NCBI GenBank assembly: GCA_024635855.1
Contig: JAGXHZ010000144.1
Coordinates: 1 to 7,832, forward strand
Origin: Sulfuricurvum sp.
Lineage (GTDB): Bacteria > Campylobacterota > Campylobacteria > Campylobacterales > Sulfurimonadaceae
Reading direction: 5' to 3'
Length of the DNA: 7,832 bases
Below are positions 1 through 7,832 of this stretch, in pieces (position 1 is the stretch's first letter; each line of letters starts with the position of its first letter). The notes beneath the pieces were generated by a model. That model was not told where the DNA came from, did not search any database, and worked only from the letters and a program-made list of their open reading frames with translations. The position numbers and the translations under genes were made by a program.

Positions 1-1182
1 AATAGCAGGAACCGTAAAGGTCACGATAAGTGATTCTCTCCATCCCAAAACAAAAGCAAGTAAAATGGCGATGATCACGATGGAGAGCAAGAGGTGAAAA
101 ACCAGCTCATTAACCGCTTCATTCGCACGTTCACCATCATTACGAGTAATAACGTAGTGAATCCCTTGGGCTTCCATGAGCGGTTTGTATTTGGTCAGTT
201 CTGATTTAACGGCATCGGCTATGATGACGGAATTTGTCCCTTGCAGTTTTGAAACGGTTAGGGTCACTTGATCTTTGAGAGGAGAAAATTTGCCGTCACT
301 CCCTTTGACACTCACAAGTGCGGATTTGAAGTTTTGTATGTCTTGCCCTGAAGTAACGGTGGCAACATCACGCAAATAGATGGCAGAACCGCCGTATTGT
401 GCAACGATAATGTTTCCGACATCGTCAACACTTTCAATTGCATTTTTGACTCCGATCATCACAATCTCATTTGCCTCTGTTTTTCCTTTTATTTCAGGAA
501 CATTGTACGAGAGAGCTTGCACGGATTGGACGATCTGACCCAGTGAGAGATTGTAGCCAGAGAGGCGATTGATATCAACTTGGACATTAAATTGGTGTTT
601 TTTTGCCCCCTTGATATCGGTAACAGCGACGTTAGGAAGACCGTTGATATGGTGCTGTATGAATTTGACACGATCGTAAAGGATTGTTGGATCGATAGCC
701 GGATTATTGGAGTAAAAAGCGACGGATACGATAGGAATATCGACGTCAATGTCGAGAGGTTTAATGATTGGCTGCATTGCACCTTTGGGGAGAATGCCCA
801 TGTTTTGCATGATTTTGTCATAAATTTTAAGATTGGAGTCCTCTTTAGCCTCTCCTATAAAAAAAGCGGCATTGATGACGGCAACATTATCCATCGCCAT
901 TCCGTGGATACTTTCAATTCCTTTGACTTCTTTGAGTTTACGTTCTAACGGTTTGACAATAACGTTTTCAATTTCATTTGCCGTCGCACCGGGCATGGCA
1001 ATGATAACGGTTGATCCACTGACCACCATTTGAGGGTTTTCTTCACGCGGCATGAGCATGAGGGCGATGTAGCCGATAATGATGAGAAATATTCCCAAAA
1101 TCGGGGTAAGCGGATTGCGTAAAAAACCAAGAGCGAGTTTTCCGGCAGAATCTTTGGGATGATAAGGTGTGCTATGAGACAT
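1..1182 (-). CDS. RND-family efflux permease, N-terminal part (runs off the left edge)
   Basis: Inner-membrane pump of a tripartite RND exporter, which uses proton influx to expel substrates through the adaptor and outer-membrane channel encoded just upstream. The frame is open for 394 codons from ATG 1182 to base 1, with no stop or frameshift on full translation. The first membrane helix spans about residues 25-44. It is followed by the RND motif region MPREENPQ (44-51) and a periplasmic porter region with motifs such as MPGATANEIENV and IVKPLERKLKEVKGIESIHG (about 69-100). A second helix lies at about 360-379 and a third begins near 385. Family members are about 1,000 residues, so some 60% lies outside the window. 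AGGAG (1188-1192) lies 5 nt before the ATG and overlaps the stop codon of the adaptor gene, implying coupled translation. Substrate cannot be told from this part; the sequence looks like the HAE-type drug/solvent class rather than metal-specific CusA. Family sure, substrate unknown. Confidence 0.93.
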   Translation of the reverse strand, partial: MSHSTPYHPKDSAGKLALGFLRNPLTPILGIFLIIIGYIALMLMPREENPQMVVSGSTVIIAMPGATANEIENVIVKPLERKLKEVKGIESIHGMAMDNVAVINAAFFIGEAKEDSNLKIYDKIMQNMGILPKGAMQPIIKPLDIDVDIPIVSVAFYSNNPAIDPTILYDRVKFIQHHINGLPNVAVTDIKGAKKHQFNVQVDINRLSGYNLSLGQIVQSVQALSYNVPEIKGKTEANEIVMIGVKNAIESVDDVGNIIVAQYGGSAIYLRDVATVTSGQDIQNFKSALVSVKGSDGKFSPLKDQVTLTVSKLQGTNSVIIADAVKSELTKYKPLMEAQGIHYVITRNDGERANEAVNELVFHLLLSIVIIAILLAFVLGWRESLIVTFTVPAI

Positions 1183-1190
1183 CAAGACTC

Positions 1191-1976
1191 CTAATTTAAT
1201 TCAACAGTAGCGTACATTCCAGGGTAGACGGTTTGTTTTGCGCTAAAGGAGACTTTGATTTTAAACGTATGGGTCATAGGATTAGAGCTTGGGACAACAG
1301 AGCTTATAGTTCCGATTCCGACAAATCCCGTTGAGGGGATGGAGACTTTTACTCTTTTACCGATAGGAGCCATTTTTAGAGCACTCTCTGCCACTTCTAC
1401 TTCGATTTTAAGAGTCGATAAATCGGACAATACGATTGCAGGCATCCCCGGCATTGCCATTTCGCCTACTTTGATATTTTTAGAGATTACCACACCGTTG
1501 TTTGGAGCTTTGATTTGTAAATATTGGTATTGATTGGTGACTTCTTTTTGGCGAGCTTTCGCTTGAGAGACTTGGCGCTCGGAAATCTTGATTGTATTTC
1601 TAAGATTTTTTTCGGCAAGTTCAAGGTTTTCAATTTCATAACGGCTTACCATGTCTTGTTGGTATAAACGGCGGTGACGTTCAAGATTCACTTTGAGATT
1701 TTCATACTGATTTTGGTACATTTGCTGTGATAATTCGGCCTGTGCAATACCCATCTCTACTTGGGTCTTAGCGGAGTCAATCTCACGTGAATCAATCGTA
1801 TAAAGTAAATCACCTTTACGGACACGTGAACCCTCAGAGACGTTTACCGAGGTAACAAATCCCATATTACGACTGGTAATCATTTTTTGGTTGTCGGAGA
1901 TAATGACGCCGGAAAGGGTGAGTCCTGCTGCATTTAAAACGGCACCTAGGGTGAGAAGAGAAAAGATGATTTTCAT
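1191..1976 (-). CDS. RND efflux periplasmic adaptor (HlyD/membrane fusion protein family), short form
   Basis: Periplasmic adaptor bridging the RND permease and the TolC-like channel. The 261-residue product starts with a signal-like segment (MKIIFSLLTLGAVLNAAG) without an obvious lipobox cysteine. It then shows the first lipoyl half (about 38-62, GFVTSVNVSEGSRVRKGDLL), a heptad-rich coiled-coil hairpin (about 65-150), the second lipoyl half (about 155-177, IKAPNNGVVISKNIKVGE) and a beta-barrel domain ending at YPGMYATVEL. Typical RND adaptors are 350-400 residues; this one stops right after the barrel and appears to lack the C-terminal membrane-proximal domain. Its ATG overlaps the TGA of the upstream TolC-like gene by 4 bp (ATGA, 1973-1976), with GGAG 6 nt before it. 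Its TAG stop supplies part of the ribosome-binding site of the permease. Both junctions point to one polycistronic mRNA. Family assignment is firm; substrate is not inferable. Confidence 0.94.
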   Translation of the reverse strand: MKIIFSLLTLGAVLNAAGLTLSGVIISDNQKMITSRNMGFVTSVNVSEGSRVRKGDLLYTIDSREIDSAKTQVEMGIAQAELSQQMYQNQYENLKVNLERHRRLYQQDMVSRYEIENLELAEKNLRNTIKISERQVSQAKARQKEVTNQYQYLQIKAPNNGVVISKNIKVGEMAMPGMPAIVLSDLSTLKIEVEVAESALKMAPIGKRVKVSIPSTGFVGIGTISSVVPSSNPMTHTFKIKVSFSAKQTVYPGMYATVELN

Positions 1977-3343
1977 TGATTGGCTCCATAGCTTAGTTTT
2001 TCAAGGGCAAAAATACGTTCATTTCGTTGATTTTTAACCATTTGAAGATTGATAATTTTTTCGATTTGCTGAGATTGTTTGATGATAAGATCACTCATCG
2101 ATGCGAGATTTTCACGATAGCGTCCTTCATAACTTTTATAGATTTGGGTTGAGAGGTTGAGTTCTTTTTCCAAACTTGCTACTTGATAGTCCAAGCTTTC
2201 GATTTCGGTTTGGATTTTGTCATACTGGAGGGCAATCCCTTTTTTGGCGAGCTCCACTTCGGTTGACGTTTTAAGATGGTCAATCCGTGCTTTTTCCAGA
2301 GTATGTGCATCAATTCCGCCGTTGTACAAGTTCCAATTCAGACGTGCGCCGATCGTGTAGGCAGCATGGTCGCTGAATTTTCCTAAAAATGTATTGTCTG
2401 CACTGGATGCTTCGGCAAATGCACCCACGGTTGGAAGATAAGGTGCCGTTGCCACATCAATCATGGAGGAGCGAATTTTCAATCCATGAGAGGCTTTTTT
2501 GAGGTCACTGTTATTTGCGATAACATCAGCCTCCGTAATTGCAGTAGAAGCACGATCATCCGAAGGAGCCGCTATATCGGTAACTTTTTGGTTTAGGAGA
2601 AAGCTCAAATAGTGGTAAAGAAGTTTTTTGTTGGCCTGCATTTCTAAAATCATGCGATCGACATTTGCTTTTTTGGCTTCGACTTCGAGTAAATCAACTT
2701 TTTTGGCATATCCTTCTTGAAACATCTGCTTTGTTGTGGATTGCAATGTTGCGATGTTTTTTTGAATCACTTGCAATTTTTCGATAGAGTGATTGAGAAG
2801 CGCCATATCGTAGTAGCTTTTTCGGGTTTCGTAGATTTTTTCTGCCGTTACCTTGGTGGTGTCAAGCTGTTTGATCTTTTCCGTCTCTTGAGCTATTTTT
2901 TCATAACTGCCCAGTTTCCCGCCCGTATAAAGGGGGAGGGCATAGGTAAGTTTGCTTTGGAAAAAGTTTTGATAGCCGGGGTAATTTAGATTTTTAGGTG
3001 GTGTTACATAATCTGGTCCAGTAGGATTAGCAGTACTAGCCATAAATTCTTGAGCCCCGAAATCTCCAAAATTTGCTTCGCGTGAACTGAGTTTAAATCC
3101 AAACACATTTCCTGCATCATTGGAGCGGACAACATTTTGAGTAAAATCGAGCGCACCATAACTGTAGCCTTGAGAAAGGGATACATCGTTTTGTGCGTTT
3201 TTAGCTTCCAACGAGGCTGCTTTTATCTCTAAATTTTGTTCTTTAAGCAGCGAAACCGCCTCATTTAGAGACAATGGAGCTGCACCGAGGTTGAGAACAC
3301 TTAGAAGTAACGCAAGTGTTAATCGTTGTGTGGGAGATGCCAT
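1973..3343 (-). CDS. TolC-family outer-membrane efflux protein
   Basis: Outer-membrane channel component of the efflux system, expected to trimerise into a beta-barrel with a long periplasmic alpha-helical tunnel. The 456-residue product is of normal family length. It has a signal peptide (MASPTQRLTLALLLSVLNLGAA) followed by PLSLNEAVSLLKEQNLEIKAA, the usual opening of mature TolC-like proteins. The two internally homologous halves are visible: LPLYTGGKLG near residues 137-145 and NWNLYNGGID near 336-345, each followed by long helices. PYLPTVGAFA (301-310) is the conserved strand entry of the second half. It is the first gene of the minus-strand operon. AAGGAGG lies 10 nt before the ATG, a somewhat long spacing; a 4-bp GGAG/CTCC hairpin could fold within that spacer. 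A promoter candidate lies about 55-85 bp upstream. Confidence 0.95.
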   Translation of the reverse strand: MASPTQRLTLALLLSVLNLGAAPLSLNEAVSLLKEQNLEIKAASLEAKNAQNDVSLSQGYSYGALDFTQNVVRSNDAGNVFGFKLSSREANFGDFGAQEFMASTANPTGPDYVTPPKNLNYPGYQNFFQSKLTYALPLYTGGKLGSYEKIAQETEKIKQLDTTKVTAEKIYETRKSYYDMALLNHSIEKLQVIQKNIATLQSTTKQMFQEGYAKKVDLLEVEAKKANVDRMILEMQANKKLLYHYLSFLLNQKVTDIAAPSDDRASTAITEADVIANNSDLKKASHGLKIRSSMIDVATAPYLPTVGAFAEASSADNTFLGKFSDHAAYTIGARLNWNLYNGGIDAHTLEKARIDHLKTSTEVELAKKGIALQYDKIQTEIESLDYQVASLEKELNLSTQIYKSYEGRYRENLASMSDLIIKQSQQIEKIINLQMVKNQRNERIFALEKLSYGANQ

Positions 3344-4105: not shown

Positions 4106-4178
4106 GCCCTGAGCTCACGTGCCCTATAGGGTATGTCGAAGGGTGTCTGCTTCGTCATTCCGTGCTACGACACGGAAT
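4106..4178. repeat. Palindrome-rich dispersed-repeat-like block after efp
   Basis: A compact block of inverted repeats follows the efp stop by about 10 bp. TGAGCTCA (4110-4117), CACGTG (4116-4121) and CCCTATAGGG (4122-4131) are each perfect palindromes. The last extends with G-U pairs to about 10 bp of stem (4117-4136). An 8-bp perfect inverted repeat follows: ATTCCGTG (4157-4164), loop CTACGA, CACGGAAT (4171-4178). The GTCATTCC...GGAATCC pattern resembles the small palindromic repeats (REP-like, dRS3-like) scattered in many bacterial genomes. A related shortened copy seems to lie inverted at 7814-7832. It may also help end efp transcription, but the 8-T run (4188-4195) begins 9 nt past the hairpin, so it is not a classical intrinsic terminator. 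Confidence 0.55.
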
Positions 4179-4245
4179 CCATTTCCATTTTTTTTCAAAT
4201 TATTAATTTAATCATCACTAATCTCCACATTTTCTTAATTCAGTG

Positions 4246-4287: not shown

Positions 4288-4581
4288 ATGACAAAAACAG
4301 AAATTCTTCAAACGCTCAAAGCACTTAAACCACAATATCAAAAAGATGGTCTTATTCTCGTTGGATTATTTGGCAGTTTTTCACGCGGTGATGAACGTGC
4401 TGACAGCGACATCGATATTGTCTATGAGATTGAAAAAGACAAAAAATTTTCGATGTTCAAATATCTCAAATATCTTGGTGAATTGGAACGTTCCCTTCAT
4501 CATAAAGTCGATCTTGTTAGAGCCCAAACAATTAAAGCCGATTTGAAACCTTATATTTATAAGGATATGATTTATGTCTAG
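4288..4581 (+). CDS. mntA: MNT-domain nucleotidyltransferase, antitoxin of a HEPN/MNT toxin-antitoxin pair
   Basis: Minimal nucleotidyltransferase of 97 residues. In characterised HEPN/MNT systems this protein transfers AMP to a tyrosine of the partner HEPN toxin and so neutralises it. The hallmark GS-x10-DxD is exact: Gly29-Ser30, ten residues, Asp41 and Asp43 (GSFSRGDERADSDIDI), with the third carboxylate at Asp75 in KVDLVR. The metal-binding triad therefore looks complete. Length is typical for MntA. The 3' end overlaps the HEPN gene by 8 bp (4574-4581), supporting co-translation. The order here is antitoxin first; the opposite order also occurs in known loci. The ATG lacks a clear Shine-Dalgarno, unlike the next gene. 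The gene is visibly AT-richer than efp and the DJ-1 gene, consistent with horizontal acquisition. The role is inferred from family and context. Confidence 0.88.
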   Translation: MTKTEILQTLKALKPQYQKDGLILVGLFGSFSRGDERADSDIDIVYEIEKDKKFSMFKYLKYLGELERSLHHKVDLVRAQTIKADLKPYIYKDMIYV

Positions 4582-4915
4582 GGATTGGAAGCTTTATCTT
4601 AGAGACATTATTTCTGAATGTCAAAATATCCGAAAATTTACTGCAAATATTAGTTTCGAAGAGTTCACCGATAATACAGAAAAAGTGTATGCCACCGCAA
4701 AAGCATTTGAGAATATAGGGGAAGCAGTTAAACAAATTCCAAAAGAAATACAAGATGAATTTAGCGCTGTTCCGTGGAGTGAAATTGCCAAAATGAGAGA
4801 TGTTTTAACTCATCATTATTTCGGTTTGGATGATAAAGTACTTTGGGATACATTGGAAGAAGATTTTGTTGTTTTTGAAAGTACAATTGAACAGATAAGC
4901 AAAAAATATTTATAA
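4574..4915 (+). CDS. hepT: HEPN-domain (DUF86/HepT-like) RNase toxin
   Basis: All-helical HEPN protein of 113 residues, matching the HepT/DUF86 family in length and motif order. The catalytic RX4HXY motif is intact: Arg75-DVLT-His80-His81-Tyr82, within PWSEIAKMRDVLTHHYFGLD. Arg and His form the RNase active site at a dimer interface, and Tyr82 is the residue expected to be AMPylated by the MNT partner. AFENIGEAVKQIP (about 44-56) is the other conserved family block. AAGGA (4561-4565), 8 nt before the ATG, is a good ribosome-binding site, stronger than that of the antitoxin gene. The gene overlaps the antitoxin gene by 8 bp. Its TAA ends at 4915, directly against the ribosome-binding site of the DJ-1 gene, so read-through into that gene is likely. 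A 60-base sample (4621-4680) is about 30% GC, well below its downstream neighbour. Family firm; toxicity inferred. Confidence 0.9.
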   Translation: MSRDWKLYLRDIISECQNIRKFTANISFEEFTDNTEKVYATAKAFENIGEAVKQIPKEIQDEFSAVPWSEIAKMRDVLTHHYFGLDDKVLWDTLEEDFVVFESTIEQISKKYL

Positions 4916-4926
4916 AAGGAATCATG

Positions 4927-5493
4927 ATGCCAAAAGTTCTAATCCCTATTGCAACAGGTTTTGAAGAGATCGAAGCGGTGAATATCATTGATGTATTGCG
5001 TCGAGCGGGTATTGAAGTGATTATGGGTGCATTGGATGAGCATATGCTGGTCAAAGGTGCTCACGGTATTACGGTGCAGTGCGATCGTGTTATCACAGGT
5101 ATCAGTGCGGATGAGCTCGATATGATCGTTCTTCCCGGCGGATGGGGCGGAACAAAAGCCCTTGCGCATGATGCAACCGTTCAATCGCTTTTAAAAGAGA
5201 TGGATGGTGCAGGGAAAAATATCGGTGCAATCTGTGCTGCTCCGTATGCCCTTTATACGGCGGGTGTTCTTAAAGAGGGATATACCTGCTATCCGAGTGT
5301 TGAAGATGAGATAAAAGTCGCTGGATATAAAGGTGATGAAAGTGCTGTGGTTCAAACGGGCAACATTATGACCTCTCGCGGTCCTGCAACAGCGATTTGT
5401 TTTGGTTTGGCTATCGTTAAAAAGCTGACGGGTGATGAAGCGTATCATAAAATTCGTGGCGGTTTGCTGGCAGAATATTGTGACAAAATTTAG
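4927..5493 (+). CDS. DJ-1/PfpI superfamily protein, YajL/ThiJ-like
   Basis: Cytoplasmic class I glutamine amidotransferase-like protein of the DJ-1/YajL group. Members are linked to oxidative and carbonyl stress, and their exact chemistry is debated. The conserved opening is clear: MPKVLIPIATGFEEIEAV, with the glutamate pair that contacts the reactive cysteine. IVLPGGWGG precedes the nucleophile elbow GAICAAP (Cys103, counted from the chosen start). The C-terminal part has the family block MTSRGPATAICFGLAIVKKLTG. At 188 residues it is of normal size. Two adjacent ATGs exist at 4924 and 4927. The second is preferred because AAGGA (4916-4920) then has a 6-nt spacer and the protein begins MPKVLIP, as relatives do. 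The gene starts 11 bp after the HEPN stop and its 3' end overlaps the next gene. Base composition is richer in GC than the toxin-antitoxin genes, so it probably belongs to the host backbone. Confidence 0.95.
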   Translation: MPKVLIPIATGFEEIEAVNIIDVLRRAGIEVIMGALDEHMLVKGAHGITVQCDRVITGISADELDMIVLPGGWGGTKALAHDATVQSLLKEMDGAGKNIGAICAAPYALYTAGVLKEGYTCYPSVEDEIKVAGYKGDESAVVQTGNIMTSRGPATAICFGLAIVKKLTGDEAYHKIRGGLLAEYCDKI

Positions 5494-6226
5494 TCTTTTT
5501 GCTCTGAGCGTATTGAGTTTCACTGCTTATGCTGAGGTGCATCTTTCTTCATCTGAAAATTTGACACAAGAAAATGCTATCCAATATTGTCGTGATATTG
5601 GTACAGGATGGAGGGCACTGTCTATCCGCGAGTTGTATGAACTTCCTGCAAATACCTCTTTTAAGGCAGGATTTAGCTATTGGTCAGCAACAAAAGTAGC
5701 TTCAGGAGACGCTGAAGTTGGTACGGGAAGTGAAGGTGATGGCGGGATAGTTGCTATGATTGGCTACAGTTTTTTTCCGAAAGAGCGTAATATTACCTTA
5801 TCCCCTCCGACGAAAAAAATTGCTGCTGCATGCACCAATGTCCTTGAGAATAAACAAATACGTGACTATGCTTTAACCCCTAAAGGGATAGAAGATAAAG
5901 GATCAGAACTACTGTGGCATTCACTTGATGCGACAGATAAGCAACGTAAATATACGTATGAATCAGCTAAAGAGATGTGTGAGAATTTAAGCCTGAACGG
6001 ACGGATGTGGCGACTTCCTACGGCTGATGAACTGTACGGTATCGTTGATACTGCCTTTATTCGTCCGAGTGTGGATATGAAGTTTTTTGGTCTTATGATG
6101 CACCGTTACTACTGGACGAGCGACACGCTCAATGAGCACGAAGCGTATGCGGTCGGATTTAAGCTAGGTTCCGTTGCTACCGTCGTTAAAACCCAATCAG
6201 CGTATGCACGATGTGTGAGTGAATAA
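5480..6226 (+). CDS. Exported protein with two tandem DUF1566-like units
   Basis: Function unknown. With a GTG start at 5480 the product is 248 residues and opens with a compact signal peptide, MTKFSLFALSVLSFTAYA, cut after AYA. The C-terminal half (about 142-248) matches the DUF1566 pattern: AKEMCENL, WRLPTADELYGIVD, YYWTSDT, AYAVGFKLG and a terminal YARCV. The N-terminal half (about 28-121) repeats the same order in degenerate form: AIQYCRDI, WRALSIRELYEL, YWSAT, then AACTN. Each unit keeps two cysteines in equivalent places (Cys37/Cys118 and Cys167/Cys245), which may form disulfides in the periplasm. The frame is also open upstream, with GTG 5432 and ATG 5435 giving a longer n-region. I prefer 5480 because it yields a standard signal peptide and only a 14-bp overlap with the DJ-1 gene, though no start has a good Shine-Dalgarno. 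DUF1566 domains occur in surface and secreted proteins. Confidence 0.75.
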   Translation: MTKFSLFALSVLSFTAYAEVHLSSSENLTQENAIQYCRDIGTGWRALSIRELYELPANTSFKAGFSYWSATKVASGDAEVGTGSEGDGGIVAMIGYSFFPKERNITLSPPTKKIAAACTNVLENKQIRDYALTPKGIEDKGSELLWHSLDATDKQRKYTYESAKEMCENLSLNGRMWRLPTADELYGIVDTAFIRPSVDMKFFGLMMHRYYWTSDTLNEHEAYAVGFKLGSVATVVKTQSAYARCVSE

Positions 6227-6257: not shown

Positions 6258-7523
6258 TTGAATCACGATACAACTATCAATGAAAATGCACTAAACTACC
6301 ATGAATTTCCCAGTCCGGGCAAAATCGCCACCCAAATCACCAAACCTTTTGTTTCTCAAAACGACCTGAGTTTGGCTTACACTCCCGGTGTTGCGGCTCC
6401 GTGTTTGGAAATCCAAAAAAATCCTGAGGATGCCTATCGTTATACCTCCAAGGGCAATCTTGTGGGGGTTATTTCCAATGGTACGGCGGTTTTAGGTCTT
6501 GGAAATATCGGGGCATTGGCTTCGAAACCCGTGATGGAAGGGAAAGCAGTTTTATTTAAAAAATTCAGTGATTTGGATGCGTATGACATCGAAGTGGATG
6601 AAACCGACATCGAGCGTTTTTGCGATGCGGTAGCGGCTATTTCACCGACATTTGGAGGAATAAATCTCGAAGACATCAAAGCACCTGAGTGTTTTGAGAT
6701 CGAGAGACGGTTGGTCGAGCGGCTGAATATTCCTGTAATGCACGACGATCAGCACGGTACTGCGGTTATCTCTTCCGCGGCTATTATCAATGGATGTTTA
6801 TTGACATCACGCGAGCTTGATAACATACGTGTGGTGGTAGTCGGTGCGGGTGCAGCTGCGATCAGTTGCGCCCGTCTGTATCGATTTATGGGTGTTCAAA
6901 CTATCTTTATGAGTGATTCAAAAGGGCTTATTCATGCAGGACGCAGTGATTTGAACGAACAAAAAAGAGAATTTTTGGCACCTGTTGGGATGACGCTTGA
7001 CGATGCATTTATGGGAGCAGATGTCGTGGTCGGGCTTTCTAAACCGGGTAGTTTTACCATAGAACATATTATGACAATGGCAGCTGAACCGATTATTTTC
7101 ACCCTAGCCAATCCTACTCCTGAAATATTTCCAGAAGATACGAAAGCAGCTCGACCCGATGCGATTATCGCCACGGGTAGAAGTGATTTCCCCAACCAAG
7201 TGAACAATGTCCTCGGTTTTCCTTTTATTTTTCGTGGAGCGATGGATGTGCGGGCACGTATTATTAATACCGAGATGAAAATGGCAGCGTCTCACGCCCT
7301 CGCACAACTGGCTCGTGCTGAGATTCCCCAATACCTCAATGAGATTTATGGAATGAAGCTGACATTTGGAAAAGAGTACATCATCCCAAAACCTTTCGAT
7401 AAACGCCTGATCGTCGAAGTCTCTGCCAGTGTCGCGCAGGCTGCTGTGCAAAGCGGTGTGGCACAAATCGCATCTTTTGATTTAGAAGAGTATAAGCGTG
7501 AGTTGTCGCACCGTTTGAGTTAA
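6258..7523 (+). CDS. NAD(P)-dependent malic enzyme (oxaloacetate-decarboxylating), short form
   Basis: Cytoplasmic enzyme converting malate to pyruvate and CO2 with reduction of NAD(P), linking the reductive TCA cycle and gluconeogenic pools. The 421-residue length fits the short bacterial form without a fused phosphotransacetylase domain. Visible motifs are [15 protein letters not shown] (catalytic Tyr41), [20 protein letters not shown] (catalytic Lys96), [20 protein letters not shown] (metal ligands Glu138, Asp139) and HDDQHGTAV (Asp164). The Rossmann loop is [16 protein letters not shown], with [12 protein letters not shown] and [20 protein letters not shown] in the C-terminal half. Cofactor preference cannot be settled by eye. 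The start is TTG at 6258, strongly supported by AGGAG (6247-6251) six nt upstream; the frame has no ATG near the expected N-terminus. It begins 31 bp after the DUF1566 gene, so it may share its transcript. Enzyme class is certain, cofactor is not. Confidence 0.96.
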
Positions 7524-7535
7524 AAATGAGGGGGG

Positions 7536-7554
7536 CAAGGGGTAAAACCCCTTG
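7536..7554. terminator. Perfect 8-bp hairpin between the malic enzyme gene and the opposing micro-ORF locus
   Basis: CAAGGGGT (7536-7543), AAA loop, ACCCCTTG (7547-7554) forms a perfect inverted repeat 12 bases after the malic enzyme stop. It lies between two converging transcription units and could end both. On the plus strand no T-run follows. On the minus strand it is followed by a C-run and then TTTTT about 10 nt later. It is therefore not a classical intrinsic terminator on either strand; it may act as a 3'-end-protecting or processing hairpin for the minus-strand RNA. Confidence 0.45.
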
Positions 7555-7566
7555 GCTATGACAGAA

Positions 7567-7626
7567 TCATCTGATCATAGGTGCAAAAATGCACACAAGC
7601 AGTAATGCTAATACAAGCTTATCCAT
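7567..7626 (-). CDS. 19-residue hydrophobic micro-ORF, candidate membrane peptide or type I toxin
   Basis: Reading the minus strand from ATG 7626 gives MDKLVLALLLVCIFAPMIR and a TGA at 7567. The peptide has a short charged start, a roughly 12-residue hydrophobic run and an Arg at the end. That makes it a plausible single membrane-spanning or membrane-inserting peptide, similar in size and composition (not clearly in sequence) to Ibs-type type I toxins. An in-frame TGA lies five codons upstream, so this ATG is the only sensible start. AAGGGGG (7639-7633) with a 6-nt spacer is a good Shine-Dalgarno. The ribosome-binding site is bracketed by sequences complementary to the leader of the same transcript, predicting tight translational silencing. 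I do not recognise a named family. Translation is inferred from the site and composition only; such a short frame could occur by chance. Confidence 0.5.
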   Translation of the reverse strand: MDKLVLALLLVCIFAPMIR

Positions 7627-7660
7627 AAAGAACCCCCTTCACATACGGTTTATGGAGGAC

Positions 7661-7697
7661 AAAAAAAAAGGTCGAGGGTAATTACTCCCTCGACCTT
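7661..7697 (-). terminator. Strong intrinsic terminator on the minus strand
   Basis: On the minus strand the 9-bp GC-rich stem GGTCGAGGG/CCCTCGACC (7695-7670, 8-nt loop) is followed at once by nine T residues (7669-7661), the classical intrinsic terminator layout. On the plus strand the hairpin is followed only by TTATCTT, so termination there should be weaker. Confidence 0.88.
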
Positions 7698-7739
7698 ATC
7701 TTGTCGCTCCATTAACCGTATGGAAAGTTTTGTATTAGC
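7661..7739 (-). ncRNA. Predicted ~79-nt small RNA / leader RNA, possible antitoxin or riboregulator
   Basis: A -10 box at 7751-7746 predicts transcription from about G7739, and the intrinsic terminator ends at the T-run 7669-7661, giving an RNA of about 79 nt without a good reading frame. Its 5' half carries the arms GCTAATACAA (7739-7730) and CATACGGTTAATGGAG (7722-7707). These are complementary to sequences just downstream on the same strand that flank the start site of the 19-residue micro-ORF. It could therefore act in trans as an sRNA on the longer read-through mRNA, or in cis as its folded leader. Existence of the transcript is inferred from promoter and terminator only. Confidence 0.6.
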
Positions 7740-7745
7740 AAAAAA

Positions 7746-7751
7746 ATTATA
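7746..7751 (-). promoter_or_regulatory. Strong -10 box for the small RNA / micro-ORF transcript
   Basis: A perfect TATAAT preceded by GG lies at 7751-7746 on the minus strand. The T-rich upstream tract (about 7752-7778) has TTTGTG/TTGTTT in the -35 region instead of a consensus -35, the usual look of Campylobacterota housekeeping promoters. Six T residues separate it from G7739, which is exactly where the outer inverted-repeat arm begins. Confidence 0.65.
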
Positions 7752-7813
7752 CCACAAAAAATAAAAAACACAAACAAGCGGAATTAAAAATGAGCAAAGA
7801 CGGGGGATGGAAA

Positions 7814-7832
7814 CCGTGTCATACCTTATAGG
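7814..7832 (-). repeat. Edge fragment resembling the 4106-4190 repeat, inverted
   Basis: On the minus strand the right edge reads CCTATAAGGTATG, then GACACGGTTTCCAT (sharing the G). The block near efp contains CCTATAGGGTATG (4123-4135; 12 of 13 identical) and GACACGGAATCCAT (12 of 14 identical) in the same order, but with 33-34 extra bases between them. The edge copy would thus be an internally shortened relative; it is cut by the window end. Confidence 0.4.

Follow-up and report, generated by a model that had tools for sequence, protein, structure and literature searches.

The window, i.e. the whole stretch of 7,832 nucleotides analysed here (Sulfuricurvum sp., contig JAGXHZ010000144.1), begins on the minus strand with three ORFs (1-3343) that presumably encode an RND pump, an adaptor and a TolC-like outer-membrane protein. 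On the plus strand, a nucleotidyltransferase-domain protein is followed by a HepT-like protein (4288-4915, Pfam), together resembling a HepT/MNT toxin-antitoxin pair, and a protein with an Lcl_C domain (Pfam) is encoded at 5432-6226. The element under study is convergent to a malic-enzyme gene and occupies the minus strand from 7751 to 7530, which reads as a -10 box, a leader with a hairpin and nine Ts, a Shine-Dalgarno (SD) sequence, a micro-ORF, two hairpins and CCCCCC. A previous sequence-only reading had listed TATAAT, a leader, a nine-T terminator, an SD, a 19-codon frame and an 8-bp hairpin, and every one of these parts is present in the sequence. The main feature, the complementarity between leader and message, was absent from it. 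The features are as follows.

7746..7751, minus strand: -10 box TATAAT, read from the sequence, 7 nt upstream of the likely first base G7739
G7739, minus strand: likely transcription start, 7 nt downstream of the TATAAT box
7730..7739, minus strand: 5' end of the RNA, GCTAATACAA, 5' side of helix A and complement of ORF codons 4-7 (fold and covariation)
7699..7727, minus strand: leader arm, 5' side of helix B, pairing with the region before the SD (fold, covariation, duplex energies)
7668..7697, minus strand: inner hairpin AAGGTCGAGGG..CCCTCGACCTT, 11 bp, terminator-like (terminator scan; conserved with covariation)
7661..7669, minus strand: exact nine-T tract (sequence; conservation in copies)
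7637..7664, minus strand: 3' side of helix B, UUUUGUCCUCCAUAAACCGUAUGUGAAG (fold and covariation)
7633..7639, minus strand: SD AAGGGGG, read from the sequence; a G-rich SD precedes the ORF in the kept copies, but the copy scan demanded an SD
7567..7626, minus strand: ORF of 19 codons plus stop, peptide MDKLVLALLLVCIFAPMIR (ORF reading, copy scan, codon-level selection)
7607..7616, minus strand: codons 4-7, TTGTATTAGC, 3' side of helix A (fold and covariation)
7581..7594, minus strand: hairpin GUGCA-UUUU-UGCAC within the Cys-Ile-Phe-Ala codons (covariation)
7556..7580, minus strand: hairpin spanning the stop codon (covariation)
7536..7554, minus strand: 3' hairpin CAAGGGGTTTTACCCCTTG, 8 bp (fold and covariation)
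7530..7535, minus strand: CCCCCC, a possible 3' anti-SD (duplex energies; weak covariation)

No -35 box was identified, and a promoter scan demanding one did not report the TATAAT site at 7751-7746. Two terminator-like sites were found in 7200-7832, compared to 0.6 expected, and the inner hairpin at 7697-7668 is among them. With the T tract at 7669-7661 and a start at G7739, the leader would measure 79 nt. The 3' hairpin (7554-7536) is followed by no T run, which we count against our preferred explanation, the RNA 3' end at this place being a predicted one. The element is flanked by 14-bp direct repeats (7517-7530 and 7781-7794) that are 93% alike and may have arisen by chance. Furthermore, CCGTG..CACGG-like repeats occur in the intergenic stretches 4140-4180 and 7795-7832, and text much like 7781-7820 also adjoins the element of a close relative (G465).

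The predicted RNA (7739-7536) folds with a minimum free energy of -97.2 kcal/mol, compared to a mean of -46.8 for shuffled sequences (z -12.2; none of 200 shuffles equally low), and the core of helix B consists of 7727-7707 and its complement 7657-7637. Copies of the element are present in relatives. A search of 398 genomes from the order gave matches in 15 at E <= 0.01, nine of them below 1e-8. Two of the six weaker matches (L100, L104) are divergent units, and the other four (L101, L102, L103, L105) showed no such architecture by eye. Within one family, 39 of 151 genomes gave matches at E <= 0.001, with up to six per genome, fragments included. Intact copies were collected by a scan for an ATG, an SD-like string, a run of at least seven Ts within 90 nt and 15-24 codons. 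The kept set comprises 75 ORFs of 19 codons with a CxFA-like motif, or 74 intact copies once L168, a truncated duplicate of L106, is set aside. All ORFs of this first type found by the scan have 19 codons except for one nested start in L141. One locus (L098, in G081) carries two intact units in tandem on its minus strand, with ORF starts at 1257 and 1569, 312 nt apart.

For the structural alignment, 71 copies were used (284 columns), with the second L098 element, L113, L142 (cut at the contig edge) and the duplicate L168 left out; A2 drew on 55 of these rows. The consensus from RNAalifold comprises 45 pairs, with double changes in 35 of them. For 42 scored consensus pairs, 94.5% of the cells are paired, compared to 77.8% in the shuffled controls and 39.6-54.2% in the slid ones. 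Cells with double changes number 585, above all 500 shuffles (185 +/- 16) and all six slides (at most 131), but the 71 copies share ancestry and the counts therefore overstate the number of independent events. Shared ancestry is ignored by the shuffle controls and accounted for by the slid ones, and the structure was derived from the same alignment. Regarding the single helices, double changes occur in all nine pairs of helix A (97.2% of cells paired), in all six of the stop-codon hairpin 7580-7556 (93.8%) and in two of four pairs of the hairpin 7581-7594 (98.9%), and the two parts of helix B are paired in 84.9% and 98.4% of the cells.

The pairing partners were also compared between copies. 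The duplex of the RNA 5' end with the ORF has a mean energy of -14.4 kcal/mol for cognate partners, all 71 at or below -10, and of -5.6 for non-cognate ones. Correspondingly, the leader arm binds the pre-SD region with -26.9 kcal/mol in cognate and -13.8 in non-cognate combinations. For the SD with the 3' end, 70 of 71 cognates reach -10 kcal/mol, but so do 85% of the non-cognates, and the cognate ranks first in only 2 of 71, hence the covariation of this third duplex is weak. Among paralogues of the same genome (20 genomes), -10 kcal/mol is reached by 10 of 104 non-cognate pairs, and each of the 54 cognates has -10.3 or lower. On the evidence of the covariation, the pairing between leader and message is under selection.

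The promoter is conserved on the same strand. In one alignment column a sense -10 box with at least five of six matches is present in 70 of 71 copies, and still in 70 when four matches suffice. In contrast, the best column for an antisense -10 box within the 284 aligned columns reaches only 9 of 71 copies at five matches and 22 at four, i.e. it is not conserved. Together with the leader complementarity, this bears out the earlier proposal that the regulatory element lies upstream on the same strand and not antisense to the frame. An ORF on the opposite strand was also considered and rejected, because its frames are not conserved, many copies having only short or interrupted ones on the plus strand.

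How tightly the fold may close the start region was estimated from the computed energy needed to open the RNA from the SD to codon 5. The mean is 17.8 kcal/mol for the full-length RNA, 15.7 without the leader, 17.0 without the 3' end and 10.7 without both; since it falls that far only when both are absent, the model indicates two locks. However, removal of the first 10 nt gave 19.3 instead of 17.8 kcal/mol, i.e. no drop, which counts against our preferred explanation and means that helix A on its own does not form the lock according to this calculation. Overall, prediction and covariation indicate that SD and start codon would be hidden in the folded primary transcript, as is expected of a type I toxin mRNA.

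The peptide itself is conserved. In the 71 copies, pN/pS over codons 2-19 is 0.44, Leu10 and Cys12 are invariant, and Phe14 (70/71), Ala15 (69/71) and Pro16 (68/71) nearly so. Synonymous change is frequent at codons 12, 14 and 16 (C12: pS 0.54, pN 0; F14: 0.47 and 0.01; P16: 0.62 and 0.06). Counter to peptide conservation, the ratio is 0.83-1.35 at codons 5, 7, 11 and 19, and 15.9 at codon 2, where synonymous change is very rare. On these codon statistics, selection acts on the peptide, which is small and hydrophobic as would be expected for a type I toxin. Thus, the earlier notion of a riboregulated hydrophobic micro-ORF gained support from both sides, the peptide and the pairing.

The best reading of these data is a self-inhibited micro-peptide mRNA that would work like a type I toxin mRNA, with the antisense element placed in its own leader. 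With a probability of roughly 0.7, we regard the locus as a chromosomal single-promoter unit in which a 19-residue hydrophobic, probably membrane-active toxin-like peptide is encoded by a self-locking mRNA. Sequence, conservation, covariation, peptide selection and copy distribution were observed directly, and from them we infer transcription, termination, translation, toxicity and trigger. The first approximately 10 nt of the RNA would pair with codons 4-7 and the rest of the leader with the region just upstream of the SD. The SD itself could be bound by the C-rich 3' end. Initiation may be blocked already during RNA synthesis. A share of the transcripts would end at the hairpin and the exact nine-T tract as a leader RNA of approximately 79 nt, which would make the full mRNA a read-through product. 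Release would require removal of the leader plus the 3' end, or altered termination.

Several known systems resemble such a unit in part. The Ibs peptides of Escherichia coli are hydrophobic, have approximately 18-19 residues and occur in several copies, and the Sib RNAs are antisense to their ORF. Peptide size, hydrophobicity, a similar start and the copy number are shared with the window's element, a likeness that may be one of composition only; in contrast to Sib, which covers the ORF, no conserved antisense -10 box accompanies the element. In hok/Sok, a fold-back between the mRNA ends blocks translation, and the system includes a larger toxin, the overlapping mok frame and the antisense Sok RNA. 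The block by pairing of the mRNA ends would be common to both, whereas the larger toxin, the mok frame and Sok set hok/Sok apart; an antisense promoter of that kind is not conserved within the aligned element. Neither Rfam nor Pfam offers a family that fits: Rfam gave no match at the gathering threshold (highest sub-threshold match 23 bits compared to 90), and Pfam gave a single match below the cut-off (13.7 bits compared to 23.9). This agrees with the earlier reading, in which the locus was not recognised as a named family.

The closest system is aapA/IsoA of Helicobacter pylori, for which the consulted sections state that the full-length mRNA is inert, that trimming of its 3' end activates it and that IsoA is the antisense RNA (PMC6733600, PMC8322730), and also report mRNA folding conserved in related species (PMC6733600). 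According to the same sections, it shares with our element the occurrence in Campylobacterota, several chromosomal copies and a short hydrophobic peptide (PMC6733600, PMC8322730), and in both the full-length mRNA would be kept inactive through long-distance pairing that sequesters the SD, which is a prediction in our case. However, IsoA is described there as an antisense RNA transcribed from a promoter of its own, whereas the complementary element found here is part of the mRNA's own leader and precedes the T9 hairpin. Since no conserved antisense promoter of the IsoA kind exists within the aligned element, we did not file the family under aapA/IsoA although the lock is alike. AapA1 is given with 30 residues (PMC8322730), and the 19-codon ORF of the window is set apart from such peptides by length, the property compared here. 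In the portions consulted of the literature on type I toxin-antitoxin systems in Campylobacterota, T1TAdb, CjpT/CjrA and premature termination (PMC7826846 included), no description of this family was found; aapA-related loci may be in print.

The T tract is exactly nine Ts long in all 74 intact copies. A looser scan, which accepted six or more Ts after the hairpin, returned 74 units with a -10 box and a C-x-[FY] ORF, all with T9, and two further T9 units in which no -10 box was detected; intact units with T6, T7 or T8 were not among its results. For comparison, 29 stretches were chosen from 50 matches obtained by searching 40 of the loci, of which nine belong to divergent subfamilies and 20 were judged by eye to be degenerate copies of the first type, with leader sequence and without an intact ORF. 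Only seven of these 20 kept T9, the rest having T6-T8 or no run (Fisher 2.6e-11, a value that overstates the difference because some copies are related, with L170/L181 and L172/L184 alike). The sequence-only reading had named loci with hairpins persisting without the ORF as speaking against it. The 20 degenerate copies are of this kind and are counted against our preferred explanation, yet the ORF is kept in the 74 intact copies and the exact T tract tends to be lost where the ORF is lost. In the fetched loci, which were found by likeness to element or leader, the peptide-end motif has a run of at least seven Ts upstream in 75 cases and lacks it in one, which has no start, and every intact first-type ORF observed there has a leader. 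Hence, copies often lose the ORF and retain the leader, and no case of the opposite was observed. Apart from this, L100 contains at 1595-1684 on the minus strand a solo leader (TATAAT, hairpin, T9, no ORF), which immediately precedes a complete unit that encodes a different type of peptide.

These observations bear on a possible, still tentative alternative, in which the terminated leader of approximately 79 nt is a sense-strand antitoxin that acts in trans on the read-through or processed toxin mRNA, one promoter serving both and the T9 tract setting their ratio. It is consistent with the complementarity of the leader to codons and pre-SD region, the exact T9 of intact copies, the rarity of cross-pairing between same-genome paralogues, the existence of ORF-less leaders next to the lack of leader-less ORFs in the fetched loci, and the solo leader beside a full unit in L100. 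However, folding in cis accounts for the same covariation, and T9 decays in ORF-less leaders, so that many of them look like remnants and not like working antitoxins. The complete scheme, i.e. a one-promoter, one-strand toxin-antitoxin system in which termination at T9 yields the trans-acting leader, read-through yields the self-locked toxin mRNA, tract length sets the ratio and every paralogue pairs by a code of its own, is in our opinion possible but less likely than not.

Units with the same plan and other peptides extend the family beyond the first type. They encode the hydrophobic 19-21-mers MRRALLLLLLIAIFFAIKAY (L100), MWRLLLIILLLCLLTKKLY (L201), MRWVFLVIFLLCLLTVRAY (L266), MWRLLLIVLLLCLLAEKAF (L269), MWRLLLVIALICIFAIKAH (L273), MWRFVLVVALLLCLLATTSYY (L274), MGNLIVIIVLLMLIITKLY (L202), MAKILLIMLLLAIIITRLH (L226) and MPHKILVVFLILMVFAPSLY (L150). 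The peptide sequence varies widely between subfamilies and the hydrophobicity is kept. In several divergent units the tract has seven Ts, and AT or GT frequently comes next. In 12 divergent pairs, the longest exact pairing has a mean of 8.5 nt compared to 4.6 nt in non-cognate combinations, a mean biased upward because L226 and L229 were found with a detector demanding at least 8. Two pairs have only 5 nt and two 7 nt, a length reached by 4% of shuffles. The background of the detector was one match in 80 loci (L001-L080) and five in 8.6 Mb of sequence after crude shuffling. Not all divergent copies have an intact ORF: a copy in G110 (L104) has ATA at the in-frame start position with a nearby ATG out of frame, L203 has an early stop and T8, and L232 has no ORF and T7.

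Across the phylum, a search of 397 genomes with model R1 at E <= 0.01 gave matches in 17, of which 13 reached at least 41 bits. The model is unspecific below approximately 40 bits, as 3 of 36 Bacteroidota control genomes (identified by record titles, and searched with looser filters than the phylum) also matched at E <= 0.01, the best with 37.7 bits. At E <= 0.05, matches occurred in 7 of 18 genomes of the G176 family, with full-plan units in five (G176, G110, G009, G165, G122), and in 28 of 104 genomes of the G101 family, where only G101, G690, G692 and G330 exceed 41 bits. Divergent units used as DNA queries matched 8 of 104, 3 of 18 and 13 of 104 genomes, mostly with short weak matches. That the element belongs to a phage or plasmid was considered and rejected: viral contigs (one exact leader pattern) and phages gave no match, and plasmids only two weak Enterococcus matches covering 12% of the query.

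At the malic-enzyme site, the element is not a constant neighbour. The malic-enzyme gene of the window has 71% best-segment identity to L001 among the matches listed, and its matches put the window close to Sulfurimonas. A malic-enzyme match was found in 10 of 14 genomes, four at only 57-59%, which were not counted, and six at 78-90%. In only one of these six close relatives (G465; L144/L255) does an element adjoin the malic enzyme; it is oppositely oriented, and its peptide differs from that of the window. The other five contain none according to the pattern T6+[GA][CT]CCTC on both strands of the fetched loci, a pattern that decayed copies would escape; L252 is reversed, and its printed stretch is therefore not the downstream side of the malic enzyme.

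This patchy presence has to be weighed when the peptide is seen as a small regulated membrane peptide that is not toxic but serves the cell's physiology, and that an attenuator and an RNA lock keep in check. Conservation of the peptide, several copies in many genomes and, for some copies, neighbouring genes common to several loci would fit such a role. Nevertheless, we consider it unlikely, given that degenerate copies are common, that at the malic enzyme a single close relative has a copy, with other orientation and peptide, and that the sequence differs widely across subfamilies when hydrophobicity stays. A structured non-coding RNA with an incidental ORF would explain the strong conservation of structure, but is very improbable in view of the residues conserved at the synonymously varying codons for C12, F14 and P16. 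That the element is a leader-peptide attenuator of the next gene or the terminator of the malic-enzyme gene, as a leader with terminator-like hairpin and short ORF in convergent position might suggest, is hardly credible, because the flanking genes differ among copies (97 ORF clusters are common to more than one locus, and the widest spans seven loci, two of which, L093 and L114, are one place).

Returning to the self-locking mRNA, the dozens of relatives in Campylobacterota with the same lock suggest, as far as sequences can tell, a new family of RNA-controlled toxin-like peptides. It would be a large and apparently undescribed family, whose members are too small for the usual gene calling. 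The 5' end of the mRNA has co-evolved with the mRNA's own codons across dozens of copies, and the T tract is kept exactly, its loss accompanying the loss of the ORF. Hence, the element opens a direct test of whether a toxin and its RNA antitoxin may arise from one promoter via partial termination.
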